From the NCBI RefSeq assembly GCF_026151205.1, contig NC_087079.1, positions 16,107,945 through 16,171,944 of the forward strand: a stretch of DNA of 64,000 bases. The letters run 5' to 3'. Source of the DNA: Bolinopsis microptera. Its lineage: Eukaryota > Ctenophora > Tentaculata > Lobata > Bolinopsidae. A model generated the notes under the pieces. It was not told the DNA's origin, ran no database searches, and saw only the letters and a program-made list of their open reading frames with translations. Positions 11,480 to 63,261 of this stretch are shown here, piece by piece (within the stretch, counting starts at the first letter, position 1; every line of letters starts with the position of its first letter). The position numbers were made by a program, and so were the translations under genes.

Positions 11480-14400
11480 ATTCCCGCCGACTCGTCTCAG
11501 ACGGGCTCAGTTACTAGACAGCGTTACTTTTCCCTGGCCACTCCTCGGCCCCGACCGCATCACAAAATAAGCGTGGGCAGTGTCAAGAGGATGTCCCTGA
11601 TGGTCAGTAGGGTTGGTGTGTACCTTGGTTAAATTGCCGAAGGGTCTTGCTCTGGGTGACAGGGACAAAAGGAAATCGCGGCATGAACGGAATCGCGATT
11701 TTTCCCATTATTTGCGACAAATTTTATGTATAGTTTAATGTATAGTCTGTTAAAAATCGCGGTATCGTGATTTTTGGCCAAAATAATCGCGAAATCCTTT
11801 TGTCCCTGCTGGGTGATAACACTATAAACTATCATGTGTTGCTCTTTAGGGGATTAGCGCTCTCTCTCTCTATATCGCTCTGATATTATTCTCTGGGTGC
11901 TGCGCGCACTTTTCAGTTTAAACAGTGCTGCTCTCACTATGTACAATTGTCCGTGATGTTAGAGTGAATAATTTATGTTTATATGCACGTGCATAATTTG
12001 AGTAGTTTATCACCAAACAATGGTATTGTTTTACTGCACGTGCAAATATACTGATTTATTGCACGAGCAAATAAAATTGATTTATTGCACGTGCAATAAA
12101 TGACTGTTTGATAGTTTTTGGCATGAAGGCTGTTTTGAGATGAAAGTGTCAGCTTCTTAATATCAGGGATCCTTATCGTGGAAAACGATCGTTTAAATTA
12201 GTGAAAATTTACAAAAGGGGTTATTTGTTCTAGATCCGGTGTTCCCATGTGTTTTGCTGGTTGGGCGTGTTGCCATGGTAACTTGTATTCACTCTGCTGA
12301 AAATCTTTCTTATTAAGATGTCTTTCCGAATTGCTCTCAATATAAATATAACTATGGGTCGCACATAACGACAACCATGACTTACACAGATGGGCTAAAA
12401 GTACTCCACTGATTAGGCATTATATATGAGGAATCATTGTACCCGGGACTGTGCCTATTCGAAAGCAGTTCTGACGAGTCAATGGAGGGATTTACAGGTT
12501 CCTACGTGGAAAACTTCAGTGTTGTGTACAAATGAAAGATTCCCTGAGTGAAATTTTCATTCAACGAGATGCGGGCCATTTTCGTCAAAGCTTCTATAAT
12601 ATTTTGCTATTGAGTAATAGCTATTATCTGACTGATAACTCGTTATCTGATATTGATGATATGTAAAATATTACTCAAAACTCAAGTGTAAACAAAAATC
12701 ACCGCAATTCGTACGCTTTATATTCTTCGCTCTGGCACGTGCACAAATCAATTTTTGTTGACTCGCCCACGTGCAGAAGGAAGTTAAAGTATGCACGTGG
12801 TGCGCGGAACTAACTTGCACGTGGTGCGCGGAGCTAACTTGCACGTGTTGCAGGAAAGTTTGCAAGACCCACTGGCCGGGAACGACCACCACATGGTGAT
12901 GAGACTATGTAAAACACCCAGCTTTAAAAGGAAAGTTATCAAACAGCACTCCCGGCAGTCCACTTGTCCTCCTGTGGTAGTCAGGTTGGATTCTAGTCCA
13001 AATAAGTGCTCCCCCGGCGCTGGCAGCACCCTTCTGGTGAGCCTCTGCAGTTTCAGCATCTACTTCAGCACTTTGTCGGGAGTTTTATAAGTGTTACCAT
13101 GGCAACGTCTAGTGCACCCGCCTGGGTTACTTAGATTAAGATATTACACTCAGTTTTACTATGAGAAACATCCAGCTAGTTTCTAAACCATTTTCTTGAT
13201 TTTGATCTACGTATCAAGACAATATTTTTATAGCTGGAAGATAGGTGCTGATTGGTATTGTTGAAAGAAAACGGAATCATATTGGGGACTGGGAATAGTC
13301 CATTTCAACTGCAAGGTTTCTTCATTTCTACTAAGTTAAGGCTAGGTTTCTGAAATTTGTATAAACTCCAAGCACCGTTTTCTAACCTGCATAAAATGTA
13401 GACTTAGTTTCTTTGAGCGAGTTCCATATAAAAACTGAGTGTACTCTATAAGTACTCTATTGTGCATGTCAATTAGCAATTTCAAACTGCATGAGTTTCG
13501 CACATATAAAAATGTTAAACGCCTAAAGACTCAATTAATAATAACCGAAATTGAATGCTGATCGAGCTCAACAGAAGCAAAATGAGCTCAGTAAACGATA
13601 ACCAGGCACAAACCGAGTGTAAGACCATGGTTATTTCCGACTAAGACCCCGCTGTGTCTGTCACCACTCTCACCAGACTTAATCGACTAACGAGTCTCCC
13701 TTATACTGAGCGGAAAACGGTGCGCTGATTATTGTTAGCCTATTACTCGGCTGACAAACTTTTAAGGGTTAATCATCACAGTGATTCTCAAGAATAAGAA
13801 ATGATTGGGGAGCCCGGGAGCTCGCTGGCCTGAAGTTTTAAGAAAAGTCTGATTAGGTTGACTCGACACTGTCAAGCTAAGGCCGCTGTGATCTGCGTTA
13901 CCATGGTTACTGAATGCTGTTATACCCTGGGTCTCTACTATACTATAGTGCACTTCAGCTAAACAGACAACTGCAAGCTTGATCTTCCACTGTGTTACTG
14001 ATTATTGCGTTATCATGGCAACCTATTGCTGCGTTACCTTGGTAGCTGACTGCTGCCTTACCATGGTAACTGATTGCTGCGTTACCATGGTAACTGATTG
14101 CTGCCTTGTAAGCACTGAATTCTACCCTGGTGTGGTCCGCATGATCTCTGTTACCATGGTTATTGACTTGTGAAGCACATTAGTAAATAGTTAATTTGAT
14201 AATTAGCCAGTTAAGCAGTCAGATAGTTTTATTGCCCGATGATTTTGATTATCAAGGTTACTTATAGTGGTTATCTCTCAGACAGGCTCCTCAAACGAAC
14301 TGATGAACAGGTCACATCCCAAGTGCGCTAAAGACAGTGCTGATGCTAAAACAGAGACCATCAAATACTACCACAGCATTCCTGAAATTCAGGTTATTTA

Positions 14401-17400
14401 AATTCTTGAACATTTCATTAAATTTTAATTAAACTGACTGGTTTGTTAGCCATGTCATATTTGATAGTGTGTAACATATTGTGTAACATATTGTGTAACA
14501 TATTGTGTAACATATTGTGTAACATATTGTGTAACATATTGTGTAACATATTGTGTAACATATTGTGTAACATATTGTGTAACATATTGTGTAACATATT
14601 GTGTAACATATTGTGTAACATATTGTGTAACATATTGTGTAACATATTGTGTAACATATTGTGTAACATATTGTGTAACATATTGTGTAGCATATCGTGT
14701 AACATATTGTGTAACATGTGTAACATTAAGGCCAGTACGGAGAAGTTGTCGTGTTCCCTGCACGCGGGGGCAGATCTGAGCACAGTTCCTATAAAAGACA
14801 GTGTCACTGGAGTCATCCTCACTCGTATAGACCAGCTCTCCCCAATCAACCAGATGGTACTGAAGTCAGCTAGTGTGCTAGGGCGGAAGTTCCACTACGA
14901 AACTTTACAGGTTATTTTATAACACTTCACTAGCCTCGTGATTATGCTTTACATGATTATAGGCTACGAATGTTTATGAATCATAGTGTTTAAGTTTTAC
15001 TGTGCACAATTTCCATTAGGCTATTCTCTCGATCGTATACATATTTGATAAACATGCTGTCTAAGCTCTGTCGTTTGTAAGCAGCTGATCGGCTTCTTTA
15101 TGTTCGAATTCAGAATTGCTTTACCCACTGCAGGCGATAACCCCCAACATTCGAGAAGCTTCACTTGAGAAAGCTCTGACGGAGTTGTTAGCAGCTAAGA
15201 TAATAGAGCGGTGCCAGGAGGACCGGCTGAGTGTGGCCTTCTTCAGGAACAGGAGACAAGACAGTCTCCCCCAACTTAGGGGCCAGAAGATGTCATACAC
15301 GTGAGTAGTAATTGCTAAATGTAGTCATAACTTTAGTCATAGATTTTATTTACATACCACGTGCATACTTTTGACGAAACTACAAATCACGTGCACAATT
15401 GCACATTGTAGTCAGTGGTCGAAGAAAATTCTTAATAACGTGTTTCAAAAAAATGTGTTAATCTGATGATGTTGTTTCAGGTTTACACACTCAATCCTAC
15501 AAGAGACTACCTACGGTATATTGTGTGCAGACCAGAGACGAGTCCTGCACGAGGGAGCCGCAGAACACCTTCAACTCAGGTTACCTAGCAACCCACCATT
15601 ACCTTTATTCTTATCTTATTAATGTTACCTAGCAACCCGCTCTTATCTTCATTCTTATCTTATTAATGTTACCTAGCGACCCGCTCTTATCTTCATTCTT
15701 ATCTTATTAATTTTACTTAGCAACCCACCATTACCTTTATTCTTATCTTATTTATGTTACCTAGCAACCCGCTCTTATATTCATTCTTATCTTATTAATG
15801 TTACTTAGCAACCCACCATTACCTTTATTCTTATCTTATTAATGTTACCTAGCAACCCGCTCTTATCTTCATTCTTATCTTATTAATGTTACTTAGCAAC
15901 CCACCATTACCTTTATTCTTATCTTATTAATGTTACCTAGCAACCCGCTCTTATCTTCATTCTTATCTTAATAATGTTACCTAACAAACCGCCATTATCT
16001 ACATTAAATGTTACTTAGCAACCCGCCAGTATCTTCATTCTTATCTTATTAATGTTATCTAGCAACCCACCATTACCCTGGTTACCTATCAATGCACATC
16101 AAAACACAAATGGTTGATAAAAATATAGCAACAATTGAGAGTAAAATAGTTCGTATCACAAATCCAAAATAATTTATTTGTCAGAAAGACCTGTATGTGT
16201 TAAATATAGTAATGTAAGTTTAGTCTAGCTTCACACAGTAGTGCACTTGATCAGAGAGTCGGGGCCGACAGCTGATGAGAGGGGGTCCTCTGTTGGAGCA
16301 CGTGCAGGTAGCCTGGGAGGAGTCCGTGACAATCCGGGAAGAATGGAAGGAGGGTCCAGCAGAGGGGAAGTAGGGTCAGGCTGAGGAGAAGTAGGGTTGG
16401 AAAGAACGGACTTAGGACCACCGAACAGAGTGGAAACAAGGTCGCCCACAGTTGAAGTAGGAGCACTTGGAGGAGCACTTAGAGCAGGGGTGGTTATGGC
16501 CTCGGATCCACTATGGGAATCACCCGGTCTGGGTGAGGGGAGTATGAACTCTCCAGCGTGAGCTTCAGAGTAGACTATTGGGGGGAATGGAAGTCCGGAG
16601 CTGCCTTCTATTTTAAACTTAACAGCACTGAGCAACTTGTTACCGTAAGTGCAGCACGAGAACAGTAGGGTAATGCCCAGAAACATCACTATCATTGGTG
16701 TCCAGTCAATTGCTGGACCTCCAGCACCTGAATCCTTATCTGTACTGTTACTTCTGAAATAAAGAGGTATAACGAGGTGTGAGGTAAAATGATGGGTATC
16801 TAAAGTTTATACAGAGGTAGAGCTGGATGCGAGCAAGAATGAGGGGTAAGAATAAAGTTTAATAATGAGGGGTACGAATAAAGGGTAATAATGAGGGGTA
16901 AGAATAAAGTTTAATAATGAGGGGTTTCTAACTTTTCTATAAAAGTAAAGCTGGACATCTCCTTCCTTGATGCTTCGGCTGGAACAGTTAACAAAACCAC
17001 CGCCAAACACAATATCATTTTTAACTGCATCCTGAAAATACAGCTGTTAACTGTCGTGCAAAGTGTTTGACTAAGAGTTAGTTAATGTTACTAAAGAGTT
17101 AGTAGATAAACTGAACTGAAGTCCACATCTCAACCTTATCAAGTGTTCGATTCAGTGGTCGACCGGGGCCCCCAAAATCACAACCCCCGGCCCTTCCCGG
17201 GCCCGGCCAAAATTTGGCAAATCGCCGGGAGTAAACCCCTGCCAATAAATTTAACCCCGGCCCCGGCCAAAAACCATGCATTTGCCGGGGGCACAGCCGG
17301 GGATTTCATGAACGATTTTGGCACATTTTTGAAAGAAATCAAACACAATTTAATGGTAATTATGAGATTTCAAAGTTGAAAAATATATTGTCTACGTTGA

Positions 17401-20400: not shown

Positions 20401-23400
20401 TAAAGGTCTTCTCCTCCCCCTCGTCTCCCCTTCCTCCCTCTCCTCTCTTCCTCTCTGTAAAGGTCTTCTCCTCCCCCTCGTCTCCCCTTCCTCCCCCTCC
20501 TCTCTTCCTCTCTGTAAAGGTCTTCTCCTCCCCCTCGTCTCCCCTTCCTCCCCCTCCTCTCTTCCTCTCTTCCTCTCTGTAAAGGTCTTCTCCTCCCCCT
20601 CCTCTCCTTTCCTCCCCATCCTCTTCTCCTTTCCTCCCCATCCTCTCTTCTGTGCTCTGATAATAAATATTTCAGCGGTACAGGTTCTGGTATGTGTAGT
20701 GACGATGAGGCTGACAGGGCTGATAAACTTAACACTCGCAGGTCCACTTCTGAGAGCAATGTCTTCAGGTAGGTCGCTTTACCGATACATACCATGGTTA
20801 ATCGTATAATGAATTACTTTTTTATGCTTATTATTTTCTTATTTGCACTGACAATCTGACATTTGACTTGTATTAAATTTGTGATTTGACACGAGTCTAC
20901 ATGATGAACATTACAGACCGTTACCGAGAATTGCAGTTAATGGGCTGTAAGTAAAGAGATCGCATCTGATTACACACTAAATTACACACTAAATTAATAC
21001 TATGTATTCAGATGATTAGATTATAACCACGTGACTCAAACTAATTAAAGATGAGCAACTGATTAAAATTTGTAGCAAAAAGTAAAAAAACGATTATATG
21101 TACAGCGTACACTTATCGTCTAGCTATCATGGTTACTAGAAGGCCGATTGCCCTGGTTACCAGTTATTCTGGTTACCTGTTACCCTGGTTACCTGTTACC
21201 CAGGTTATCAGTTACCAGTTACCCTGGTTACCTGTTATCCTGGTTACCAGTTACACTGGTTACATGTTACACTGGTTCCCGTTACCCTGGTTTTCAGTTA
21301 CCCTGGTTACATGTTACCCTGGTTCCCGTTACCCTGGTTTCCTGTTACCCTGGTTACATGTTACCCTGGTTACCAGTTACCCTGGTTCCTGTTACCCTGG
21401 TTACCAGTTACCATGGCTACATGTTACCCTGGTTACCTGTTATCCTGGTTACCTGTTACCCTGGTTATCAGTTACCAGTTACCCTGGTTACCTGTTATCC
21501 TGGTTACCAGTTACCCTGGTTACCAGTTACCATGGCTACCTGTTACTCTGGTTACCTGTTATCCTGGTTACCAGTTACCCTGGTTCCAGTTATCATAGTT
21601 ACCTGTTACCCTGGTTACCAGTTACCCTGGTTACATGTTACCCTGGTTACCAGATACTAAGTTACACTGGTTACTTGGTCTCAATTAACATTTTATACGA
21701 GTTTTTTTCCCTACTCTTGCCGAAGGCAAAAAGATCGTAGGGAATAAGTAATCGGGTTTGGATAATATGAGGTGGCCCGACAGTCCTACGGTGTCGACAA
21801 AAGTCTGCTCCTTCGCAATATATACCACTCCCCTATAATAATTAGGTGTATAAAAAGAGTATATTTTGCGCGCGCGACGCTAGTTATGTGTTAATTAATT
21901 ACAGGCATAACAACCAGTTTTTGGTGCTTGACGACTGTTACACAGGTTTCCATCGGGTTACAATTTACTCTAATTCGTTAATATAGCATATTAGTCATCT
22001 GAGCGGATCAATCATCAATAATATAAGTGTTATTTTGGTGAGACAAGCTTAATAAATTACTATACCGAGGGATAAAATTCAGCAAGTCAAAACAAATAAA
22101 ATTATGATATCAGCTGATAAACTCGTGGCTGATTATTAAACAGTTGATCGACACTGAATAGTAAAAAGCGAATACATAGTTGAGAACAAATGATTAGATT
22201 ATAACCACGTGACTCAAACTAATTAAAGATGAGCAACTGATTAAAATTTGTAGCAAAAAGTAAAAACACGATTATATGTACAGCGTACACTTATCGTCTA
22301 GCTATCATGGTTACTAGAAAGCCGGTTGCCCTGGTTACCTGTTACCAGTTACCCTGGTTACCTGTTATCCTGGTTACCAGTTACACTGGTTACCTGTTAC
22401 CCTGGTTACCAGTTACCTGTTACCCTGGTTCCCGTTACCTGTTACCCTGGTTACCAGTTACCCTGGTTACATGTTACACTGGTTCAATCATCAATATAAG
22501 TGTTATTTTGGTGAGACAAGCTTAATAATTTACTATACCGAGGGATAAAAAGCAAGTCAAAACAAATAAAATTATGATATCAGCTGATAAACTCGTGGCT
22601 GATTATTTAACAGTTGATCGACACTGAATAGTAAAAAGCGAATACATAGTTGAGAACAGATTTTACTTTACATTTACATCCAAGAAGCAACTAAGATCAA
22701 GATTGCGGTACTATGCTTTTAAAGAATCCTATATCAAATCAAATGCTCGATGGTGCTGTAGATGTGTCGAATAAGCATCAAAATGTATTAGTTTATGTTA
22801 GACTTAGATACAAATAATAACTAAGATGAGACAGAATATTTTATTACAGTCAATAAAGTTGGCATACGATGCAATAATATGACGTGACATGATACGCATC
22901 GTTAACACGAAACAAAACCGCGCAACATATGAAATGATCTACAACCAAACCACATACAAATCGACGGCGACATGCACCTCAGATGTGCGCAGGATTTTTC
23001 AAGTTCTGCACGCCTAATATAATATAAACGATTAATGATTATCACGTGCGCCAAACACCACTCTGGGATACAATAAAGTAGAACAATTACATTGTAGGCA
23101 GTAGGGAAATTTGATCGTGCGTGGTGTTACCGCGGCGAAATTCTTGTTATTGGAAGTTTCTTCAAAATCTGTAATACTTCTTGATAATTCCGAAAAAGGT
23201 TACAAAACCAAAAGATTTCAAAATAATTTCAAAGCTTCACACTGATTAAACGACAAATCTTTTAGCGTTTTATTTAATTTGATCTCCACAACTGGCTATT
23301 AATCATGGCTGATTGAAGAAAATCTCTTATCAACAATTACTGTTAGTATCTCTATAATAACTGATATTATATCTATAGTAACTGTTCTCTCTGCAGTACA

Positions 23401-26400
23401 AGTTCGTCATCGCCGGAAAGTGAAATGTTAGCGGCCCCTTCCCAAGACTCGGATATCGACACAATGAACTCCTATCGTACCAATATGGATCAGGTCTGTG
23501 CAGAGATACAGCGTGTCAGATAAGATACGTCCCTATAATTTAGATTAACAGATAAGATACGTCCCTATAATTTAGATTAACAGATAAGATACGTCCCTAT
23601 AATTTAGATTAACAGATAAGACACGTCCCTATAATTTAGATTAACAGATAAGATACGTCCCTATAATTTAGATTAACAGATAAGATACGTTCCTATAATT
23701 TAGATTAACAGATAAGATACGTCCCTATAATTTAGATTAACAGATAAGATACGTCCCTATAATTTAGATTAACAGATAAGATACGTCCCTATAATTTAGA
23801 TTAACAGATAAGATACGTCCCTATAATTTAGATTAACAGATAAGATACGTCCCTATAATTTAGATTAACAGATAAGATACGTCCCTATAATTTAGATTAA
23901 CAGATAAGATACGTTCCTATAATTTAGATTAACAGATAAGATACATCCCTATAATTTAGATTAACAGATAAGATACGTCCCTATAATTTAGATTAACAGA
24001 TAAGATACGTCCCTATAATTTAGATTAACAGATAAGTTAGTCCCTATAATTTAGATTAACAGATAAGATACGTCCCTATAATTTAGATTAACAGATAAGA
24101 TACGTCCCTATAATTTAGATTAACAGATAAGATACGTCCCTATAATTTAGATTAACAGATAAGATACGTCCCTATAATTTAAATTAACAGATAAGATACG
24201 TCCCTATAATTTAGATTAACAGATAAGATACGTCCCTATAATTTAGATTAACAGATAAGATACATCCCTATAATTTATATTAACAGATAAGATACATCCC
24301 TATACTTTAGATTAACAGATAAGATACGTCCATATAATTTAGATTAGCAGATAAGATACGTCCCTATAATTTAGATTAACAGATAAGATACGTCCCTATA
24401 ATTTAGATTAACAGATAAGATACGTCCCTATAATTTAGATTAACAGATAAGATACGTCCCTATAATTTAGATTAACAGATAAGATACATCCCTATAATTT
24501 ATATTAACAGATAAGATACATCCCTATACTTTAGATTAACAGATAAGATACGTCCCTATAATTTAGATTAACAGATAAGATACGTCCCTATAATTTAGAT
24601 TAACAGATAAGATACATCCCTATAATTTAGATTAACACATAAGATACATCCCTATAATTTAGATTAACAGATAAGATACGTCCCTATAATTTAGATTAAC
24701 AGATAAGATACGTCCCTATAATTTAGATTAACAGATAAGATACGTCCCTATAATTTAGATCAACAGATAAGATACGTCCCTATAATTTAGATTAACACAT
24801 AAGATACATCCCTGTAATTTAGATTAACAGATAAGATACATCCCTATAATTTAGATTAACACATAAGATACATCCCTGTAAATTAGATTAACAGATAAGA
24901 TACGTCCCTGTAATTTAGATTAACAGATAAGATACGTCCCTATAATTTATATTAACAGATAAGATACATCCCTATACTTTAGATTAACAGATAAGATACG
25001 TCCCTATAATTTATATTAACAGATAAGATACGTCCCTATAATTTAGATTAACAGATAAGATACATCCCTATAATTTAGATTAACACATAAGATACATCCC
25101 TGTAATTTAGATTAACAGATAAGATACGTCCCTATAATTTAGATTAACAGATAAGATACGTCCCTATAATTTAGATTAACAGATAAGATACGTCCCTATA
25201 AATTAGATTAACAGATAAGATACGTCCCTGTAATTTAGATTAACAGATAAGATACGTCCCTATAATTTATATTAACAGATAAGATACGTCCCTATAATTT
25301 ATATTAACAGATAAGATACGTCCCTATAATTTAGATTAACAGATAAGATACGTCCCTATAATTTAGATTAACAGATAAGATACGTCCCTATAATTTAGAT
25401 TAACAGATAAGATACGTCCCTATAATTTAGATTAACAGATAAGATACGTCCCTATAATTTAGATTAACAGATAAGATACGTCCCTATAATTTAGATTGAC
25501 AGATAAGATACGTCCCTATAATTTAGACTAACGGATAAGATACGTCCCTATAATTTAGATTAACAGATAAGATACATCCCTATAATTTATATTAACAGAT
25601 AAGATACGTCCCTATAATTTAGATTAACAGATAAGATACGTCCCTATAATTTAGATTGACAGATAAGATACGTCCCTATAATTTAGACTAACAGATAAGA
25701 TACGTCCCTATAATTTAGATTAACAGATAAGATACGTCCCTATAATTTAGATTAACAGATAAGATACGTCCCTATAATTTAGATTAACAGATAAGATACG
25801 TCCCTATAATTTAGATTAACAGATAAGATACGTCCCTATAATTTAGATTAACAGATAAGATACGTCCCTATAATTTAGACTAACAGATAAGATACGTCCC
25901 TATAATTTAGATTAACAGATAAGATACGTCCCTATAATTTAGATTAACAGATAAGATACGTCCCTATAATTTATATTAACAGATAAGATACGTCCCTGTA
26001 ATTTAGATTAACAGATAAGATACGTCCCTATAATTTAGATTAACAGATAAGATACGTCCCTATAATTTAGATTAACAGATAAGATACGTCCCTATAATTT
26101 AGATTAACAGATAAGATACGTCCCTATAATTTAGATTAACAGATAAGATACGTCCCTATAATTTAGACTAACAGATAATATACGTCCCTATAATTTAGAT
26201 TAACAGATAAGATACGTCCCTATAATTTAGATTAACAGATAAGATACGTCCCTATAATTTAGATTAACAGATAAGATACGTCCCTACAAAAATTGTACTA
26301 AGATTCCATTAAAGTTAAGCACTCACTCGTTGTCTGATTGCGGGAAATATTGATCCTTGATCTTGCCAGATAGAAGACTGGGTTCTCAACAAGGACAGAT

Positions 26401-29400
26401 GTCACTGCAGAGTGGTGATCAGAGAGTTGGTACCCAGCATAGTGCGACACTGGAAGGCAGCCGAGAACTTTGATAACCTCATATCAGTGATGATAGAAGC
26501 TGTGGCAGCTGCGGTCTATATGGGGGACAGCGAGGAGGCTTTTTATTGGATAGGGGAAATTAATCGCAGACAAGACGACAAGAACACTGTATCCTTCCAG
26601 GTAATTCAACTGTAGTTCCTCAGTGGTTAAATAATATATTTCCTGTCTATGAAAATGTAAAAATTATTGATTAAAAGAATGTGCTGTGATATATCGTGTG
26701 TTATTTAAAAAGAATGTGCTGTGATATATCGTCTGTTATTTAAAAAGAATGTGCTGTGATATATCGTGTGTTATTTAAAAAGAATGTGCTGTGATATATC
26801 GTGTGTTATTTAAAAAGAATGTGCTGTGATATATCGTCTGTTATTTAAAAAGAATGTGCTGTGATATATCGTCTGTTATTTAAAAAGAATGTGCTGTGAT
26901 ATATCGTGTGTTATTTAAAAAGAATGTGCTGTGATATATCGTGTGTTATTTAAAAAGAATGTGCTGTGATATATCGTCTGTTTAAAAGAATGTGCTGTGA
27001 TATATCGTCTGATTAAAAGAATGTGCTGTGATATATCGTCTGTTTAAAAGAATGTGCTGTGTCACGTGCTATATCACGTGATATAGCACGTGATATAGCA
27101 CGTGATATAGCACGTGATATATCGTCTGTTATTTTCAGGTGTCCATGACGCGCATGCAGGAAGCAACAGTCAGGTACTTACAGGGGCAGGCTCACTTCAA
27201 GAACAGTCAGATTAATGATGCTATAGACTGCTACAGGAAGTGTCTCAAGCAACTAGGTAAATGTTACCTGTTACCCTGGTTACCTGTTACCCTGGTTACC
27301 TGTTATCCTGGTTACCAGTTACCCTGGTTACCATGGTTACGTTACAGATGGGTTAATAAGGGGTTATAATTTGTTAACATTTGGTTGATGGCGGAGAAAG
27401 TACAGCTTGGAAATAGGGGTTAAAGTAAGAATATAATTGAGTTACACATTCTGTTATTGTTGTTTTCCAGTGATTTGTATCTCACAGTGTATTTTCAGGA
27501 GCTCCCCAACCCTCCTCAAAGATAGAGGCCCATTTAAACCTAACGCTATACGTTATGAAACACATGTTGGACGAAAAGTTCCACTTCAAAGTTAACAACT
27601 CCACTTTCAATTACGAGGACGCAGAACGCTTTCACATCATCATTCAGTGCCTTGGTGAGTTCAATTTCCCTTTCACTATCATAATTCAGTGCTTTAGTCA
27701 TTTTAATTTCACTTTCATTATCGCTATTCGGTTTCACTTTCTCTTTCACTGACATCAATCAGGGCGGTTGAGAGTAGCACTAGAGGTGCAACATAAGAAC
27801 GTGTTGGCGTATAGTGCTGCTGTAGAACAGTACAGGTACTGGTCTAGCAGTGCCATAGAGGAGACCTCTATGAAGCTGGAGACACTCGCCAACTTCATTC
27901 ATGCTGCTCAAAAATACGCCCTCAGAGTCCCTTACAATCAGTGCGTTTTTTTACCTTATTCTTCTCTTTACTCTTGCTATCAGTTCGTACTGATCGCAAT
28001 TGCTCTGATTAATTGGTATTATTAAATTTCCAAGGGCCGTCTTTTTCACGATATCTAATGGATTAACCCGCCCAGCATTGAAGACAAACTGAACGCCTCT
28101 ATGGAGTTTGAAGCCCTGTCTCCTGATAATTCCATGGCATTGTTCTACGCTTACTTGCTGCTCACTGAGACTAAAATATCTGAGGGTGGTATAAACGCTG
28201 GTAAGCTTTGTAAGAATTCCAACGGAATTATACTCAAATTTATAAATTATGTTGGTTATCGAAATTAACTGACAGCACAGGTTGACAAACTGATTGGATT
28301 TATAATTAATATTATTTTCCCAAGCTTATACCCTGTCTAGGAAACTTCCAAACTGGGCTCCGTTTTCCGGTCTATTCATTGACATTTGACAACTGAGATA
28401 GTGACTATTCAGTGACACAAGTCTCTCTCAGAGTGCACGGCAGTAACTTTCCATTTTGTCACAGGTGTAGAGCACGGGAGTAACGCTCTCCTTCTCTCCG
28501 ATTCTATGAAACATCGTTTACTGTTTGTTTCCGCTTCACCCAGTTTGGTTCTTGGCTTCTTCTTTAGCAACGACAGGAGCAAACTCGTAGAAACTCTGAA
28601 GAATATGAACAGATTCGCTGTGGAGGTAAACGATTTGTCAATCATTTTCTACACAGTCTCGTCTGCAACTAGATTGATATTTATAGATAGTTTGGTAAAA
28701 TCATTGATATTCATGGATATTTTGGTAAAATTATCCTTTATTTCCCCACAGATTTCCGACCACGAAGGGCAGGCCTGGTTTGTAGCGTTCGCACTGTTCC
28801 TGGAGACAGAGCTGTACGAGCAGCTAGAATCCTCCCTCATGTACAGAGAGTATATATTTAGTAGTGTCAGCAGCGCAGACTTTACCAACGATTCTATCGC
28901 CAGGTTTATTGAATTTAATAGATACAGGGGTAGTTTTACCTAGACTGGCCCGTGAGGGTGACGCCAGACTGGGAACCAGTGTACAGTGAGAGATCGGGTG
29001 TAATTACCCACGTCTAATAATTCACTCCTATACCATTTTTGACTTATAAAAAAAGTCTAAATCATTGCTGGTATTGAGTGTTTGAATCAAAGTCACTGAG
29101 AAATAATCTACAGGTTCTGCATGCTGATATCGCTGGCACTAAGTTTTGCTCGTCAAGGAAACGGCCAGCGAGCAACCTCATGGGTAACAGTAGCTCGAAC
29201 TCTCGCCCCTCCAGTAATCAGCAGCCTGACGTGCGCCTTCTTCCACGCTTTACTACTAGAAACTCTTATACTGCTCTACCAGATGGGATACGATGTTAAG
29301 AGGCGACTTCGCTCTACTCTCAAAGTGTGCCTCAAAAATATGAGCGTTTATAATTGTCTACGACCTCGTGTCTACACGTATCTTGCGTTTGTTAAATTGT

Positions 29401-36617: not shown

Positions 36618-37029
36618 ATAATGATAATATGTTCATTTACTCGAAATAGTTTTTTTTTTTGAATATATCCTAAGAAAAGAGCTTCTCCAATTTCCAAATC
36701 AATGAAACTAATAAATCGATGAAACTAATAAATCAATGTTTTAGCTCATTTTACAAAGTCAAATATTTAAAACAATTAAAATTGTATAGTGCTCAATTTG
36801 TAAATGACTAGTTGATCTTTGCTATAATGATAATATGTTCATTTACTCGAAATAGTTTTTTTTTTTGAATATATCCTAAGAAAAGAGCTTCTCCAATTTC
36901 CAAATCAATGAAACTAATAAATCGATGAAACTAATAAATCAATGTTTTAGCTCATTTTACAAAGTCAAATATTTAAAACAATTAAAATTGTATAGTGCTC
37001 AATTTGTAAATGACTAGTTGATCTTTGCT
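36618..37029. repeat. 206-bp tandem duplication
   Basis: Bases 36618-36823 are repeated almost perfectly at 36824-37029, including an internal poly-T run and a small GAAACTAATAAATC duplication. The high identity suggests a recent event. Confidence 0.95.
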
Positions 37030-39353
37030 ATTGGAAGTTTGTCAAGGACTGGCAGCTAGCGGGGCAAGGAATGCACGGGCTTAGGGGCTATTTGGCACAT
37101 TGAATAAATATGTCTTCATCCCAATTTTAAACATATCCACGTACTGTATAACACATTTTGACTGTTACACATCACTCACAGTCAGCCACTCTGACATGGT
37201 TGACCACCTTCCTTGTGTGCCTGTCCGGGTCAATAAAGCAGTCAAGCATCATGTATGTTATGTTGAGCATTCTCAACCAACAAATGTGGGAACTCCCACG
37301 AAAGACCAAAACAGATCTGAAGAGACACTTAACAACATTGGAAAATAGACTTTAATTTGTTTATATAATTTATAAAGCGTATATTATTGCCCACGTTAAG
37401 GGGCATGTTAATAATTTATTAAATTATTAGCTATTTTAGATTTAATGATAATAATAATTCCTTGTGTTGTTGGTTGATCATATGAGGGGCTATAAATAAC
37501 TCATTTCATTGTTATAGATTTTGGGTCAAATGACATTGAAAGATCTTTGCTCTTGAGTCTTGATTTGATTTGATTTGATTTCGGCATGATAACGACCATC
37601 TAGCAAGGTCACTGAGGATAGCACAAGACCCAATTGTCATATAGTCAATTTCAGAGTTTCATTCAGATCGATTGAATTCAGTTAAAACAGTTATTTGTAT
37701 TAAATGATATAAATGTTTCTATTATATCACATGAACGAATTCACATCACTAAACATCCATATGCCACAAGTAGAGAATTGCGTCATTTGGGTAACAGATA
37801 TTTGAGTAACAGATCTTTCTCTCATACGTCACAAGAAGAGATTTACGTCATGTGCCATCCCTCCCTAGGGGAAAATAAACTTATCAATACATCTTATAAA
37901 ATCAATATATGATATAATAATATAAATCACAATCAAATATAAATCACAATCAAATTAGATAGAAATCATATCAACAACAATTGTAGTACTGAAAGTTCTA
38001 TTCCCAAATAAAGCCTTGATATTTAATGGAAAATCATCAAAACATAAAATGAGAATTTGGAAGATTGTTTAGCCATTTCCTTGAACAAAAATTGACGGTT
38101 TTGACTGATATTGTTTACCAGTGACTAATCAGTGAGGTCGGTGAGAGTGACACAAGTCGCCATCAAGGTACTAGAACCAGTATATCCGGAGAAAACTTTG
38201 ATGCAATGAAAATTTTGAATATGTCCTACTATACCGGTACGACATTTTCAAATTTCAGCTTTCGGCGACCCAAATTTCACTGTTTTGACTGAATTTTTCT
38301 TGAATGACCATCTAGCTAAGTCACTGAGGATAGCACAAGACATGATTGTGGTACTGAAAGTTCTATTCTGTGAGTAAAGTATGTGTGAGAAAGTTTTAAT
38401 AAAATTATTGTATATTTACTTTTGAATTTTTTAAATCTAATTTGAGAATGAAGTTTAAAGAAATTTTAATTAGCACTGTATAGTTTAAGATATTTATAGC
38501 TTATTATAACCATTGATACAAAGGCCATAATCTTTCGCCAGCTCTCCAATATCCACCTTGAAAGCTTGAAGCTGCATTTTATATCCTTGAACTACACAAT
38601 ATAAACTAAAGAATGTTTTAGTGTAGACTTTTTGTCACAACAAGACTGCAACCTATAATAACAACTATAAACAGAACCCCTAATGTCTGCTTACAATTTT
38701 TCTTCTAGTCCTAATTTGAGCCTTGTCTCTATAAACTTAACTGAACTAGCGTTTCGGTGTGTGCAAAAGCTTCCAGGCACGCGCATTCCTTGCCCCGTTA
38801 GTTACCTGTCCTTCCAAAACCAAACTAGCAGTCAAGGACAAAAAGTCATACACCAAATGGGCATTATATTTTATGAATTGTTTTACATCTTTTTATTCTG
38901 TAAAAATGTGCTAAAATTAAATTTCTTGTTTCATTGAATTTCTTGTTTCATTGATTCCCAAATAAAGCTTTGATAAATTGAAAATCATCAGAAGATAGGA
39001 CAATGCGTTTGAGAGAGTGTCCGTCCATGCTGACTGTAAGAAAACATTTCCTGTAGATACTCAGGGGCATTCCCTGAATAATATTATCTTTTAACATCAA
39101 GCCAGTGAAGATTCCTTAAATCATCTTCCATGTGATCATGTTTGTACTTTCCTGTATAAACTGTAGAATAGCCCATTACAATAGTCTTAATATGAGACAG
39201 TCAAACTGTTAGATTGAATTTAATATCTCTGATGTAAAAGAATGTTTGAAAAATGTATTGTTTTATTGAACATACCTATCTATTGTTTCATAATTGATTT
39301 AACTTTATTTTTGCTTTGTTTTGATTACAGTAGAACATTTTTCAGGTGAAACC
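37030..39353. repeat. Repeat-derived spacer upstream of TAF5
   Basis: Holds a (TGATT)n tail at 37560-37580 like a LINE/SINE 3' end. It also holds at least two units (about 37590-38080 and 38090-38360) of a dispersed repeat with blocks AGTCACTGAGGATAGCACAAGA, GTACTGAAAGTTCTATTC, CAGTGACTAATCAGTGAGGTC and AGTGACACAAGTC, also present at 44.8-45.7 kb. A GGGGCAAGGAATGC block at 37061 recurs inverted at about 38780. No gene seen. Confidence 0.6.
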
Positions 39354-50500: not shown

Positions 50501-53500
50501 ACTGGGAAACTCTTTATCGCATCTCTAAAGGACGATGTTTTAAAGCTGATTCTAAGGAGGCTGAATATCATTTCTGGAACTTTTGGAGCTCGATGGACTT
50601 TGCGAGCACTATCATGACGACGATAGGGTACGAACTACGGAGAGATTAGCCAATCAGATCGCTTTATTCATACCACGTGTCACAAACTAACCAATAAGAG
50701 CACAGTATTCATACCACGTGTCACAAACTAACCAATAAGAGCACAGTATTTATACCACGTGTCACAACTTAACCAATAAGAGCACAGTGTTTATACCACG
50801 TGTCACAACCTAACCAATAAGAGCACAGTATTTTTACCACGTGTCACAACCTAACCAATAAGAGCACAGTATTTATACCACGTGTCACAACCTAACCAAT
50901 AAGAGCACAGTATTTATACCACGTGTCACAACCTAACCAATAAGAGCACAGTATTTATACCACGTGTCACAAACTAACCAATAAGAGCACAGTATTTATA
51001 CCACGTGTCACAACCTAACCAATAAGAGCACAATATTTATACCACGTGTCAAAAACTAACCAATAAGAGCACAGTATTTATACCACGTGTCACAAACTAA
51101 CCAATAAGAGCACAGTATTTATACCACGTGTCACAACCTAACCAATAAGAGCACAGTATTTATATCACGTGTCACAACCTAACCAATAAGAGCACAGTAT
51201 TTATACCACGTGTCACAAACTAACCAATAAGAGCACAGTATTTATACCACGTGTCACAACCTAACCAATAAGAGCACAATATTTATACCACGTGTCCCAA
51301 ACTAACCAATAAGAGCACAGTATTTATACCACGTGTCACAAACTAACCAATAAGAGCACAGTATTTATACCACGTGTCACAACCTAACCAATAAGAGCAC
51401 AGTATATATACCACGTGTCACAAACTAACCAATAAGAGCACAGTATTTATACCACGTGTCACAACCTAACCAATAAGAGCACAGTATTTATACCACGTGT
51501 CACAACCTAACCAATAAGAGCACAGTATTTATACCACGTGTCACAACCTAACCAATAAGAGCACAGTATTTATACCACGTGTCACAACCTAACCAATAAG
51601 AGCACAGTATTTATACCACGTGTCACAAACTAACAAATAAGAGCACAGTATTTATACCACGTGTCACAAACTAACCAATAAGAGCACAGTATTTATACCA
51701 CGTGTCACAACCTAACCAATAAGAGCACAGTATTTATACCACGTGTCACAAACTAACCAATAAGAGCACAGTATTTATACCACGTGTCACAACTTAACCA
51801 ATAAGAGCACAGTATTTATACCACGTGTCACTAACTAACACGCAGGTACGGCGGGATGGTGCCGCACACCTCTGGAGGAAAGTTACTCGTCCTTGTGTAC
51901 GCCCTTCCTGGCATGCTGTTGATGATGAGCTATCTTAATCTATTTGCTTTATGCATCCTCATTATTATTCGTAAGGTAGGTAACGTTATTCAGGTGAATC
52001 AATCCACATCAAAATAAAGCTGGAATCAAGTTATAATAGAGTAAATTATTCAGAACCCATTTGGTATTATTCGAAATGATGGCAAAAATTCATTAGCCTG
52101 CTTATGATCTAGATTCAAGTATTTCACGAAATTAAATGGTTACGATGATCACCACTCAAGTCTGACACTCTTCCTATATTACCTGTTATAGTGTTACTAT
52201 GGAAACATGATTACTATGGAAACATAATTCATTTACGTATTTTCAGATATTAAAGTTAATTGAACGACTTGTTAATAGGTTTAGCGTATCACACGCTGGC
52301 CAGACAAGAAGACTTACAAAGTTTACAACATCATTAATACTAACAGGTATAATAGTCAGTTATACTTTTAATTATACCAGTAGACACAATAATACCGAAT
52401 ACAGGTAATTATTGATAATACCTTACAAGACATATTTATGTGGATCATAATTCTGGGGATCGGAATCCCCAAATTTCGTACCATATAAATATGTCTCGTA
52501 AGGTACTTATTTTTGCTATATATTCGATATTTTAACGATAATATATATTACATTTTCAGTGATAAGTTTGATAATGCTAGTAGTTTACTTGGTGATAATG
52601 TCCAGCATATTAGCGAACAGTAACCCAAACGACTCGTTTTTAAAATCTTTCTATTTCTACACAATCACAATGACCACAGTGGGATTGGGAGATATCGCTG
52701 TCATAGGTTGGTCTTTTTATTTGTAGTGTTGTCATGGTAACAGTAGTGTTATCATGGTAAAATTAGTTTTATCATGGTAACAGTAGTGTTGTCATGTTAA
52801 AAGTAGTGTTGTCATGGTAACATCAGTGTTGTCATGGTAACAGCAGTGTTGTCATGGTAACAATAGTGTTGTCATGGTAACATCAGTGTTGTCATGGTAA
52901 CAGCAGTGTTGTCATGGTAACAGCAGTGTTGTCATGGTAACAGTTGTGTTGTCATGGTAACAGTAGTTTTTTCATGGTAACAGTAATGTTGTCATGGTAA
53001 CATCAGTGTTGACATGGTAACAGCAGTGTTGTCATGGTAAAAATATTGTTGTCATGGTAACAGTAGTGTTGTCATGGTAACAGCAGTGTTGTCATGGTAA
53101 CAGTAGTGTTATCATGGTAACAGTAGTGTTGTCATGGTAACAGTAGTGTTGTCATGGTAACAGTGATGTTGTCATGGTAACATCAGTGTTGACATGGTAA
53201 CAGCAGTGTTGTCATGGTAAAAATATTGTTGTCATGGTAACAGTAGTGTTGTCATGGTAACAGCAGTGTTGTCATGGTAACAGTAGTGTTGTCATGGTAA
53301 CAGTAGTGTTGTCATGGTAACAGTAGTGTTGTCATGGTAACAGTGATGTTGTCATGGTAACAGCAGTGTTGTCATGTTAACAGTAGTGTTGTCATGGTAA
53401 CAGTAGTGTTGTCATGGTAACAGTAGTGTTGTCATGGTAACAGTAGTGCTGTCATGGTAACAGTTGTGTTGTCATGGTAACAGTAGTGCTGTCATGGTAA

Positions 53501-54076
53501 CAGTAGTGTTGTCATGGTAACAGTAGTGTTGTCATGGTAACAGTAGTGTTGTCATGGTAACAGTTGTGTTGTGTACGATAATGCCATCCCCTTGTAATGA
53601 AATTCCTAAGTGTAAGAGGGAAAACATGTTAAATACGTTTTCTTAAAACCCATTTTCAATAAGTATTTTAACGTATGTTTATGTTGTCACTGTGACAATG
53701 GTAGCAATAATTAGTACATATAATTAGTAGCAATAATTAGTACATATAATTAGTAGCAATAATTACAGATCATCTGTGGTACGGTGTTACTGTTAAAGTG
53801 CTGGGTGTATTCTGCATTGGGTTAGCATTGGTAACGACTGTGTTTGGTGCATTAAGGGGGTTGGCGGCAGCCAATAGAAAACGAGTAGTTAAGGTTAGTG
53901 TGGTCATGATTATCCAATTTTCCATGCCATTGTAATACCTTCTAGTCTTTCCTATTTAGGTATGTGCTTGATATTGCAATAATTTACAGGCCACAAAGAA
54001 GCTAGCTGAAAAAGTGGACTTTAAAAGAAAGCTAAGACAGCAAGATTCATCGCATAGACTTCTTGCAAGACTTTGA
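47512..54076 (+). CDS. Two-pore-domain (K2P) potassium channel
   Basis: A background K+ channel of the plasma membrane. Nine exons join in phase to 424 residues: 47512-47790, 49740-49878, 50171-50236, 50426-50627, 51846-51975, 52247-52346, 52560-52706, 53769-53893, 53990-54076. In order: a basic cytoplasmic N-terminus (93 residues), TM1 (SVCLLFVVVVYITVGAFVF), an extracellular cap with an NQT site, pore 1 with filter TTIGYG, TM2, a linker, TM3, pore 2 with TTVGLGD, TM4 and a short basic tail. The intron in pore 1 splits the first Gly codon of GYG in phase 2, a position conserved in K2P genes. An alternative first exon may start at ATG 49464 (MFKFGAIEIRRD..., donor at about 49569), also in phase with 49740. 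The subfamily is not resolved. Confidence 0.93.
47791..49739. other. K2P intron 1 with poly-G runs
   Basis: The first K2P intron, with G runs at 48751-48762 (12) and 48854-48878 (25). A possible exon at about 48612-48689 (MVQTQLSRVLQSGAYRITAF, followed by GTACAA) has a weak acceptor and is not needed for frame. Confidence 0.5.
50670..51841. repeat. 41-bp minisatellite, about 28 copies
   Basis: Each unit contains TACCACGTGTCACAA followed by CTAACCAATAAGAGCACAG. Every unit therefore carries a CACGTG E-box and a CCAAT box. It fills the intron that splits the pore-1 filter codon of the K2P gene, ending 5 bp before the acceptor at 51845. Confidence 0.97.
52193..52223. promoter_or_regulatory. Two X-box motifs
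   Basis: GTTACTATGGAAAC (52193-52206) and ATTACTATGGAAAC (52210-52223) fit the X-box consensus RYYNYYATRRNRAC and lie 24 bp before the K2P exon at 52247. Confidence 0.4.
52725..53576. repeat. 20-bp minisatellite made of X-box (RFX) motifs, about 43 copies
   Basis: Unit GTTGTCATGGTAACAGTAGT. Most units contain GTTGTCATGGTAAC, a full match to the X-box consensus RYYNYYATRRNRAC. The period is exactly 20 bp, close to two DNA turns. Shared variants (TTGACATGGTAACAG then AAAATATTG) recur 180 bp apart (about 53010-53050 and 53190-53230), showing block duplication. It lies 18 bp after the pore-2 exon of the K2P gene. Confidence 0.95.
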
Positions 54077-59001: not shown

Positions 59002-62000
59002 CAAGCTCTCTCTCTCTCTTCAACCCTCACTCCCTCACTCCTCTTGGTGCACAAAACCATTCTAACCTATGTATGTCCCCCTTACGGGTTCCACAAGCCC
59101 AACGGTACATAGTTAGACGAAAAACAGAGAAGCTCCTTGATTGCCAGATCAAGGACTGCATCAGTAGCAGCGAAATACGGATATACCTTCTCCCTTACAG
59201 TCAGCGAGCTGACAACTATCTGACTGTGTCTTTTAGGCCTTGCCACACCACCTTCGCTATTGCATCCGCTCGCCCGTATTCACTGACACATGCCACACCT
59301 GGGTTTAGTATGAAGATGTACGCATATTCACCCAAGATGCGGAGATGCCTCAGTTTAGCGAGTTGAGATACAACAGCAAACTCACAGGAGCATGGATCAG
59401 AATCATCAGTTACCAACCTGACACCGTTTCGGGGCTTTAATCGCAATACGGTTTCCTGTCAGGCGCCCCAGCAGTCCACCCTTGAACCACCATCTGATCC
59501 GAGAGTCACTTGAGGAGACCCGTTAGAGCTCGCAATTGGCGACGAGATAACGTTTATGGTACCTCTAGATGTTATAGTGAACTCTCAAGCTCCAACCTTC
59601 CTGAACTCCCACTCCCTCTTTCTCGATAACAAGTAAATCCATCTGGAACAGTGGGCTGCCTCTTTCCCACTGTCCTGTACCAGCTTCTTCAGCTCTCTTC
59701 CCCTAAAACCAATCCTCCTCGCAGCTCTCTCCAAACTCTGCGCAACCACTCCCCTAGCTCCAACTTCGACTGCGGCATTATAACAGCACCAACCTTTCGC
59801 CTGAATCTCAGCCTGCAGACCACTGTATCGGTCGAGTTTGTACTCGTGCGATTCAGCGATCCGCTCTTCAGATGGTACTGTTAGCTCTCACCAAATAACT
59901 GCCTTTGCTGACCTTGAGAATATCACAAGGTCCGGCCTCAGCCGTGTTTCCACAATCTCACTGGGAAACTTAAGCTGCCCCTCAAGGTCTGACAGCACTA
60001 TCCAATCCCGATACCCACTCAGGATCCCGAAACCACGACTCTCCTTCCGGTCGTCTTTACCTGCTTTTCTCCTCCCAGCAGGAACAAAATCAATGAACTG
60101 TCTTCCATCGCCGGCCTTGTTCTTATAAGTGTTCACTCGGCGATCACAATGAAAGACAACCTGTTCAGATATCTGCTTCAGAACCTTGTCGTGCCGCCAT
60201 CGATACCTTCCTTGACTAAGGGCCACCTTACAGTACCCAGCCAAAATGTGCTGAATGGTGCCCATCCTCTCCTCACATAACTTGCACTTCCCATCCTCAT
60301 CTTCACTCCACTTGGAAACCATAGAGGGGGTTAAGAGGGTGCCGTACACAGCACTTAGCATGAACCCAATAAGTGAGTCACCATACTTAAAAAGTGTATG
60401 CCAGCTCAAATCCGTCTTCATTACGAGCTCTCTCCACTCACCCCACCTGCTCTGCATCTCCAGAGAACCTACTTGCACCTCCCTCTCTCTTTCAATGTTC
60501 TCCTTCACTCTCAGCATAACCTCCCTCTCTCTTTCCCGCTCATCCATCCTCTCCCAAGGTTTTTTCCAGTCACCAAAACCGATGCCAACTCTTTTTTGAG
60601 GTTGCACCATCCCTCGCACCGATTCACAGACCAAATCTCTTCTGGCCTCTTCCAGTTCTGTCTCAGGCCTCCAAACTCTACCAGAACAAACTTGGGGCTG
60701 GACTGCTTTAATCAGGTCATCCTTAGATGTCTGATAAGATTGCAACAGTCGACACTTCTCTATCTTCCATGTATCTGTCAGGCTGCTCACCGGTAAGGCC
60801 ACACTGGATGATTGACTGAACAGACAAAGACCACTCAGAGTGTGCCCCACCCCTAACCACTTTCTGAGGAAACTATTGGTATTCTGTTCCCATCTGGTAA
60901 CTGTTGTGATCGGAATATCATAGATGGCAAGAGGCCACTTCAGTTTTGGAAGGACCATGTACTGATATCCCCAGCGCTTCTGGAGTCCAGTAAGGGAACT
61001 TTCATCGAGTCTCCGAAGAAAAGTGTTAAGGTCGACCTTGGTTGAGTCGATGACTGATTTGTCATTTCCTTCCACTCTTATCCATCTCCCAAGGAATTTT
61101 ATCGGCTTCTCTGACACATTCGGAATCACCTCACCACCCAACTGCAAACACACCTCTTCTCTCTCCACCTCCTCCTCTCCTACCACTACCTCCTCAACCC
61201 ACCTCACAGCCACTCCCTTCTTCAACACCAGTGCTCTGGACTTGGAGGACTTTAACTTAAATCTGGACCAGTCCACGTACTTCTGAAACACATTGAGTAA
61301 CGTTTGCATATCTTCTGCACGTGCGGTGGTCAGACAGCTATCGTCCATAAACAGCTTCAGAGTTGGTATTGGTGTGTCATCCTTGATGTACTCAATGCTT
61401 CTCGGAACCTTAGATTTTAGGTGTTCATGCCCAAGGTTCATGCACAAGACAAACAAGATGACTGATATCACACACCCCATGAAGATTCCTATCTCAAACT
61501 GCTGCCAGTCTGATGTCACCGTTCTTGAGGAGAACCTTCCGAATACCCCGGAGAAGTACCGTAGGATAATGTTGATAACCTTCTCAGGGACATTGTAGAA
61601 ACGGAGGGCCCTGGCAATCAGAACATGGGGTACCGCTCCGTAAGCGTTAGCCAGGTCAAGCCATACTACACTCAGATCCTTCTTCTTGACCTTTGCCTCC
61701 TTCAGTACCTCCCACATGGCACCAAAATGCTCCGTGCACCCACGGACGCCTGGCACACCACCCTTCTGTATAGAGAGGTCTACATATCCATTCGAGACAA
61801 CAAAGCTGGTCAACCTCTTCGCCAGGATCGCCAAATAGATCTTCCCTTGAATGTTACCCAGGGAAATAGGCCGTCCTGAACTTGGTGAAAAGTCGCCATC
61901 CGCCTTTGGGATGTAGACACCCTCGAAATACCTACAATTGTCAGGATATTCTTCTAACTTATATCCAGTTCTTAACAGGTCCCAGAGATTCTTGGCAATA

Positions 62001-63261
62001 CCAGGACATCTCTTGTACACTGTGTACGGGATCCCGTTGTTACCCGGGGCACTCTTGCTCCTTGCCTTCTTTACAACCTCCTCAAACTCCTTCTTGGATA
62101 CCGTTGTGAGGTCAAAGGCAACAGAGGGTTCAGGAGCACACTCAGGCAGACCCTCAAGTATACCAAGGGGCTGCTGCCGGGCTGGATCTCCGTACGTTCT
62201 GGCCAAGTGATCATCTAGCTCCTCCTTTGAACACTTAAGCTCCCCCACTGGACTTGGATTTAGCACTCCCTTGACTGTCTTGAAAGGGTCGCGTCCAAAA
62301 TCCCCTCTAACTCTCCTTATCTCTCTCTGCTTCTGTCTCCTTTTCTCAGCCCTCCTCAACTTCATCAAACGACCAGCCAACACTCTCAATAATGCCTCAT
62401 AACCATCCTTCTCTATCTCACTCCTTGCCTTCCTTTTCTTCCTCCTCAACTGCTTCCTCTTTTCAATCAGGCTGTCAATCTCCTCCTTTCGCCTGTTCTT
62501 AAAGCTCATGGACTTCTTTCCACTACCAGCACCTACTTCAACAATACCAAACAACTTGGCACCCTCGTCGTACACTACATCACAATGACTCACCATCTTC
62601 TCTTGAAATGGTTTCCGCTTGAGAACCACTGCAAACTTTTCTACCACACACTCATCAAACTTACTCCATCGACCATCATTGGACGCCGGCCACTTCACCT
62701 TGTCTCTTTTGCTAGCAGGTGGTTCGACTGAAATTCTCTTGTCAAGGAGAGCCCGGATATCTCTAGCACTGTGGTTGTTTTCCTGGCTAGATACCTCCGT
62801 CGAAGTTACAGGCATACTGCCAGCCGACGACTCCCCTTCCCAAATGCACTTCATTCGACCCCGATGGATATTCCTGCCTTTGACTGTGTCAAACCGACGT
62901 CCACATACACAGATACAACTCTGTCCCTCTCCTGCTTCAACCGTCGAGGACTCTCGACTACCTAGGTTTGTCCTTTTCCGGAGTACAGGTAAGTGGAGGG
63001 ATGCCTACAAAGCCTTTATTGTTAACCCGGGCAACTCGTCTCTAAATAAAGACTCCCGGGGCCTTAGAGAAGCAGGAGGCGTGGTACCGATGTAGGCTGA
63101 GGTAGCCACTTTTATGACCCCGTCTGACTTCTCTATTGCAGATCCGCTGCAGGCTCCGACCACTACCCAACCTAAAGACCAAAACCAGGCATACTATCTG
63201 TCTTATCATATGGGTCTTACCCCATGGTAGCTGGACTATCCCAGCAGTATTCAACAAAGCA
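59002..63261 (-). mobile_element. R2/NeSL-like non-LTR retrotransposon, near complete
   Basis: A 4,260-bp element on the minus strand: a 5' UTR of about 260 bp, one long frame (62998-59585) with the R2-clade domain order, and a 3' UTR of about 580 bp ending in a (GA)n run next to the left 110-bp repeat. Perfect flanking direct repeats of 110 bp indicate a recent insertion. Confidence 0.85.
59585..62998 (-). pseudogene. R2-type polyprotein with one in-frame TGA
   Basis: About 1,138 codons open from 62998 to 59585 apart from a TGA at 59890-59888. The N-terminus has a C2HC/CCHC zinc finger (CVCGRRF...H...MKC), which spans the ATG at 62854, so translation must begin upstream. A Lys/Arg-rich region follows. 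The RT fingers and palm come next. Counting from the ATG at 62854: SAPGNNGIPY at about 268, RPISLGNIQGK at 328, motif A WLDLANAYGAVPH at 398, and FMDD (in place of FADD) at 502. A CKLC...H...C knuckle (about 880) follows, then a restriction-like endonuclease with RPDLV and, after the TGA, ELTVP. The TGA separates the endonuclease PD from its ExT/K residues, so this copy is probably dead. Confidence 0.85.

Follow-up and report, generated by a model that had tools for sequence, protein, structure and literature searches.

A stretch of 64,000 nucleotides from the ctenophore Bolinopsis microptera (RefSeq assembly GCF_026151205.1, contig NC_087079.1, positions 16,107,945 to 16,171,944 of the forward strand), called the window below, contains a two-pore potassium channel (K2P) gene with an intron largely filled by a 20-bp minisatellite. 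The core of the repeated unit can be identified, with good support, as an X-box, the palindromic site of RFX transcription factors, and the array belongs on sequence grounds to a class of repeats in the ctenophore genome that share this palindrome and often not the spacer. Our best explanation, in which we place about even confidence, is that an RFX X-box nucleated the array, an intronic minisatellite that is young and still growing, and we infer that the array most likely has no dedicated function.

By Tandem Repeats Finder (TRF), the array extends over 52723-53572 of the window with a period of 20, 42.5 copies, 90% matches and 0% indels. It begins 16 bases into the K2P intron 52707-53768, which lies between an exon coding ...TMTTVGLGDIAVI and an exon coding HLWYGV..., and the joined translation of the K2P exons matches Pfam Ion_trans_2 in two stretches (E 3.2e-18). 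TRF, the exon translation and Pfam bear out the first-pass annotation of this DNA, which had placed a 20-bp X-box minisatellite after the second-pore exon of a K2P gene, and the predicted protein makes the host gene a two-pore potassium channel. The annotation's count of about 43 units comes down to 42 full units, in register at 52728-53567, and its statement that most carry the core stands: 30/42 begin with the exact GTTGTCATGGTAAC, 33/42 fit RYYNYYATRRNRAC and equally RYYNYYN1-3RRNRAC, and 9/42 break the consensus. Built of head-to-tail units within 10-60 bp and bearing signs of turnover, the array is a minisatellite by definition. Adjacent nine-unit blocks (52988-53167 and 53168-53347) are identical at 179/180 bases, indicating that the array was duplicated recently. 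Variation per site is 0.116 in the spacer AGTAGT and 0.027 in the X-box, and variant types per position number 1.17 and 0.50, respectively.

The identity of the core was assessed by counts over the whole genome (264.65 Mb in 232 contigs, here numbered with a C; 13 contigs of 15.2-26.2 Mb make up 258.07 Mb, or 97.5%, and C14 is 0.198 Mb), with the reversed pattern, of the same composition and equally palindromic, as the control. The exact core GTTGTCATGGTAAC is found at 607+638 sites against 0+2 for the control, the strictest palindrome form GTTRCCATGGYAAC at 1485 against 1, the strict 14-mer palindrome GTTNYCATGRNAAC at 3455 against 48, and the 13-mer palindrome, GTTRCYNRGYAAC, whose spacer is a single base, at 2804 against 120. 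Pairs of X-boxes separated by 1-30 bp number 1150, and the reversed pattern forms 0 such pairs, so that the sequence test named in the annotation, a lack of X-box enrichment over other 14-mers in tandem, does not refute its reading. Since the control is equally palindromic, palindromes as such fail to explain these pairs, and the idea that any palindrome would do was rejected on the same counts. Genome-wide counts of the exact dimer with the 6-base spacer are 57+54, and those of its control 0, which excludes a chance origin of the array motif.

A spacer of one to three bases is tolerated in the RFX consensus RYYNYY N1-3 RRNRAC, as presented in PMC2375033. In a profile search of the genome, the RFX DNA-binding domain PF02257 matches C9 (E 1.3e-22) and, as two neighbouring pieces, C4. 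The C9 domain is identical to human RFX1 in 1dp7 at 41/61 residues (about 67%, a hand count) and ends in LKTRRLGTR where human RFX1 has LRTRRLGTR. With palindromes enriched in two spacer forms and RFX DNA-binding domains encoded in the genome, the annotation's assignment of the core to the RFX X-box is upheld. The array is probably RFX-bindable, and from the fit to the consensus and the conserved domain, RFX would be expected to bind many of its units.

Two functional alternatives were weighed. In the first, the array would be a homotypic enhancer through which cooperative RFX binding drives K2P in ciliated cells. The 33/42 units fitting the X-box, the lower variation of X-box columns relative to the spacer and the encoded RFX domain are all consistent with this, as is a second tandem pair of X-boxes in the same K2P gene. 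The pair, at 52193 (GTTACTATGGAAAC) and 52210 (ATTACTATGGAAAC), lies just 5' of exon 52247, where two more X-boxes had been noted, in a different intron two introns upstream of the one with the array. Ciliary genes offer a further comparison. We searched about 2.3-2.4 kb upstream of each of seven (four tektins, BBS9, IFT46 and RSP3; 16.6 kb in total) and found a strict X-box at two, 213 bp 5' of the first matched residue of one tektin and 1.8 kb 5' of the first matched exon of RSP3, where about 0.2 sites would be expected from genome density (Poisson p about 0.02 by our arithmetic), an excess that is suggestive only. The fetched upstream stretches of BBS9, IFT46 and three of the four tektins hold no strict X-box, which counts against the enhancer; upstream of one of these tektins, a site departs at one base from a looser pattern. 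K2P channels are also not known to us to belong to the core ciliary set, and the introns that carry other arrays are found in genes of diverse kinds (chromodomain, C2H2 zinc finger, amino acid permease). Nor are the array periods helix-phased: the first-pass annotation had all sites facing one side of the helix, which fails at 10.5 bp per turn, where a 20-bp period shifts each unit by -34 degrees, and sister X-box arrays are offset by 0 to 171 degrees. Taken together, we judge such an enhancer unlikely.

The second alternative, that the arrays titrate RFX protein as a sponge, was also raised by the annotation and strikes us as scarcely credible. About a third of the strict 14-mers (1150 pairs among 3455 sites) do have a neighbour no more than 30 bp downstream. 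The K2P array, however, contributes about 33 sites, or about 1% of the 3455, so that it could not plausibly act as a sponge by itself. Some two thirds of the strict sites have no such neighbour, and the 13-mer and weaker sites would dilute any such effect further.

X-box minisatellites as a genomic class

The X-box arrays that were fetched have periods of 20, 21, 22, 24, 30, 32 and 53 bp and many different spacers. In the matches listed, which cover C1 and part of C2, and at the loci that were fetched, the spacers are AGTAGT (20), TAGTGTA/CAGTGTA (21), TGTACTG (21), TGCAGCAG (22), TAGTAGCTAC (24), CCACTATTAAAAGTAC (30) and AGGGTACGTACTACTATT (32), in addition to a 53-bp unit. The spacers AGTAGT, TAGTGTA and TAGTAGCTAC share letters and may be related. 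Literature searches on RFX and on ctenophore tandem repeats found no published description of X-box minisatellites.

Such arrays are a small minority of minisatellites. In 128 kb not chosen for X-boxes (96 kb mid-chromosome and 32 kb distal, taken at round coordinates, units of 10-70 bp), the X-box is absent from the consensus of all 72 minisatellites, 0/54 mid-chromosome and 0/18 distal. The suggestion that ordinary minisatellites often contain X-boxes was rejected on this basis; the window has 4/45, counting a weak 15-bp pair at 3092, and is not a fair sample.

Isolated sites were sampled on C1 (the first 20 of 41 isolated GTTGTCATGGTAAC sites and 19 GTTRCCATGGYAAC sites), and the set with which their flanks were compared was limited to the 39 loci themselves, the array loci and the window. 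One dispersed repeat family accounts for 5/20 of the isolated GTTGTCATGGTAAC sites (L029, L030, L033, L035 and L040), L041 and L043 are copies of each other, and the flanks of L024 match repeats in the window. For the remaining 12/20, flank matches do not exceed about 50 bases in length, and these short matches mostly span the X-box itself; most of the sampled isolated sites, judged from these flanks, are thus not copies of one element. Five of the 19 GTTRCCATGGYAAC sites (L044, L045, L046, L051 and L058) lie within or adjoin tandem X-box sequence. Members of the dispersed family carry one X-box with a GC-rich stretch 5' and, in some copies, a GGAAGG-like sequence 3', and at 57122 the window has a short stretch that is related to the family and contains the exact 14-mer.

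Growth, spread and constraint

How the K2P array arose can be outlined as a series of steps. RFX-type sites, which are frequent in the genome, would have been the starting material, and tandem duplication around some of them would have yielded minisatellites, on a rough estimate above expectation. Growth would then proceed by unequal exchange or slippage, with duplication within the array, of the kind the 180-bp repeat records, enlarging it further, and the array would be tolerated because it is intronic. In cells expressing RFX, many units may be occupied, and at most a modest intronic cluster of RFX-binding sites would have been added to the K2P gene, with a regulatory effect on K2P possible.

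Several results weigh against this account of a neutral, functionless minisatellite. In gap-tolerant alignments of 14 arrays (L083, with a mis-anchored consensus and 3 mismatches, and L023, with 3 units, were dropped), X-box columns show less variation than spacer columns in 12/14 by variant types (rotation p=0.003) and in 10/14 by variant frequency (rotation p 0.004), both hand counts. The test is biased by the choice of most loci through exact X-box pairs, and arrays in the 20-bp family are not fully independent. Cruder unit splitting of 16 arrays gave 10/16 (p=0.45) and 11/16 (p=0.21). The lower variability is no more than a hint of constraint. Abundance is a second difficulty. Extrapolation from 9 C1 loci gives about 91 X-box arrays, against about 8 expected by random overlap, given the 48 minisatellites with units of 15-44 bp present in 128 kb and roughly 2200 separate X-box loci. 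X-boxes thus seem to give rise to minisatellites at about ten times the rate predicted from their abundance, a rough figure from one chromosome in which C1 array loci within 10 kb were merged, possibly related arrays were counted separately and the number of X-box loci is approximate. Plain neutrality is therefore not a full account of the class. Position cuts both ways. In favour of the account, on C1 9/9 array loci lie within 5.2 Mb of an end (the outer 40%), compared to 22/41 isolated GTTGTCATGGTAAC sites (p=0.009), and 8/9 compared to 17/41 lie within 4 Mb (p=0.023); within 2.5 Mb the figures are 6/9 and 14/41 (p=0.13), and all these cut-offs were picked after the positions had been seen. 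Arrays near the middle of C2 (13.73-13.79 of 23.0 Mb) and the inner parts of C5, C6 and C12 show that a distal rule is not general.

On a more speculative reading, RFX occupancy in the ctenophore germline, through open chromatin or through breaks or stalled replication at the bound palindrome, might provoke tandem duplication or recombination at X-boxes and so seed minisatellites. We regard this as decidedly unlikely. Were it true, the X-box array class would be a fossil record of germline RFX occupancy and would tie a transcription factor to the places at which an animal's tandem repeats, and perhaps its recombination events, originate.

A different route to many loci is dispersal, in which the 20-bp and 21-bp X-box arrays would be a repeat captured at staggered breaks, leaving target duplications, and then expanded. 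Among the places listed, about 100 of 111, the 20-bp unit occurs on C5, C6, C8, C12 and C13. Alignments among the loci on C5, C6, C8 and C12, and between these and the ones on C13, run through the array, and in the two longest matches per pair the C13 loci alone have similar flanks. Three arrays lie between direct duplications of a length that mismatched flank pairs (mean 5.7, maximum 14) reach rarely or never: L071 (26 bp), L072 (11 bp) and the C13 array within L010 that is listed as L005 (16 bp). L066 and L081 are marginal (8 bp each, p 0.047). At some loci this fits array DNA having been captured at staggered breaks, and the 5/20 isolated 14-mers in one dispersed family point the same way. 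Against dispersal, flank duplication is not in excess at 13/20 array loci, that of the window included (empirical p above 0.15), the long flank matches of L078 and L080 are parts of the repeat unit itself, and the spacers of many arrays are unlike those of the other fetched arrays. The arrays also do not qualify as a transposable element or introner, which would have constant ends and a target duplication of constant length, as the flank duplications vary (8-26 bp) and occur at up to five arrays. We consider dispersal rather unlikely, with somewhat more to recommend it than the enhancer.

Placement within introns raises a further alternative. Of seven arrays that could be placed beside an exon, five (the window array, L066, L072, L073 and L080) begin 8-21 bases 3' of the donor, a count that lacks a fair control, and L067 and L083 lie near the acceptor instead, with splice sites assigned by eye throughout. 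The neighbouring exons are C2H2 at L073, chromodomain (just under the cut-off) at L080 and amino acid permease at L083 by Pfam; by eye they are immunoglobulin-like at L066 and transporter-like at L072, both without a Pfam match. Coding segments called from codon usage (51, against 45 in the reversed background) served only to choose frames for reading and for Pfam. As an element acting on RNA, the array would reiterate the donor, the ATG|GTAAC of the X-box making each unit a potential 5' splice site. Besides the proximity to donors, the non-palindromic GTTGTCATGGTAAC units are in the sense orientation in 4/5 arrays (window, L066, L072 and L073, not L067). This bias is not significant, however, two of the seven arrays sit by the acceptor, and the 13-mer GTTRCYNRGYAAC, which has no CATG core, is enriched too, as RFX accounts for and splicing does not. 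We consider a role in splicing very unlikely. The X-box contains the donor-like ATGGTAAC, and the L070 array, whose exon is uncertain, likewise begins within about 20 bases of a 5' splice site.

Weighing these, we retain nucleation on an RFX X-box followed by local expansion as the best explanation of the K2P array. The part most worth following is the genome-wide class of X-box minisatellites. If RFX occupies these arrays, they would provide natural copy-number experiments on homotypic enhancer clusters.

Other features of the window

Features in and around the K2P gene, and two further X-box minisatellites, are collected in the table.

Table. Positions of the K2P-associated features and X-box minisatellites in the window
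Feature	Position	Strand	Basis
20-bp minisatellite, unit GTTGTCATGGTAAC + AGTAGT, 42 full units	52723..53572	+	sequence, TRF
Recent 180-bp duplication within the array, nine units per block, 179/180 bases identical	52988..53347	+	block comparison
K2P intron carrying the array (850 of 1062 bases, 80%)	52707..53768	+	splice sites by eye
K2P exon with second pore (TMTTVGLGD)	52560..52706	+	sequence, translation, Pfam
K2P exon 3' of the array (HLWYGVTVKVLGVFCIGLALVTTVFGALRG...)	53769..53893	+	sequence, translation, Pfam
17-bp tandem X-box pair (GTTACTATGGAAAC / ATTACTATGGAAAC)	52193..52229	+	sequence
41-bp minisatellite with CACGTG and CCAAT motifs, without X-box	50665..51839	+	sequence, TRF
Separate X-box minisatellite, 24-bp period, GTTACCATGGTAAC + TGATTGCTGC	13997..14104	+	sequence, TRF
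44/88-bp minisatellite with 13-mer X-box form GTTACCTAGCAAC	15580..16077	+	sequence, TRF

The 41-bp minisatellite (28.7 copies) occupies 96% of an upstream K2P intron, 50628-51845, with splice sites again placed by eye. Its unit contains CACGTG, AACCAAT and a TATTTATA stretch, which are promoter-like motifs. Short arrays built around CACGTG, the E-box core, are also present at 27063-27121, 12025-12100 and 12792-12851, and the X-box may not be the sole factor site that recurs in minisatellites here. Arrays of the half-site GTTACC (GTTACCTGTTACCCTG, period 16) lie at 21151-21651, 22325-22484 and 27262-27340.

The window also contains minisatellites of 31 bp x 61 (85-1981, 99% matches) and 32 bp x 87 (23517-26286, 96% matches), as well as a 206-bp tandem duplication with 100% matches (36618-37031). 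A stop-free reverse-transcriptase frame of 988 aa at 59888-62854 (Pfam RVT_1, with zf-RVT below the cut-off) is perhaps a recent element resembling those without long terminal repeats. The glutamate-receptor ligand domain has 32 matches in the genome (C3, C6, C8, C12 and others), many in open frames of 430-990 residues. One of these receptors matches ML032222a iGluR, named as a gene of Mnemiopsis leidyi, at 132.7 bits, compared to 82.3 for the best kainate-2 receptor, in keeping with a ctenophore source; for another, ML032222a iGluR is absent from the 60 best matches, among which are kainate, delta and other known receptors, a result that says little and speaks mildly against a ctenophore.

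Comparison with known systems

Tandem binding sites are familiar from GGAA microsatellites, whose 4-bp units are bound by the oncogenic fusion protein EWS-FLI1, with binding shown. The arrays described here similarly align factor sites in tandem and might act as clustered binding platforms.

With respect to RFX itself, GTTGTC AT GGTAAC fits the consensus RYYNYY N1-3 RRNRAC exactly (PMC2375033), and both the two-base and the one-base spacer forms are enriched in this genome. The setting differs, in that functional human sites are described as lying near transcription starts (PMC5838959), whereas here 42 are in tandem in an internal intron. The loop-anchor motif of Mnemiopsis, CTEP1/CTEP2 (PMC12221973), is likewise an abundant regulatory motif of a ctenophore; it is GC-rich with two CpGs and was rejected as the identity of the array core, and neither "RFX" nor "tandem" occurs in the main text of that paper. 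Another parallel is the human variable number tandem repeat MNS16A, which contains GATA1 sites (PMC5438627). As in the K2P array, the repeat unit holds a factor site and copy number sets the number of sites. MNS16A, as reported there, is one locus, whereas in Bolinopsis the site of one factor forms the core of several differently spaced minisatellites in one genome, that of an animal swimming with giant cilia.

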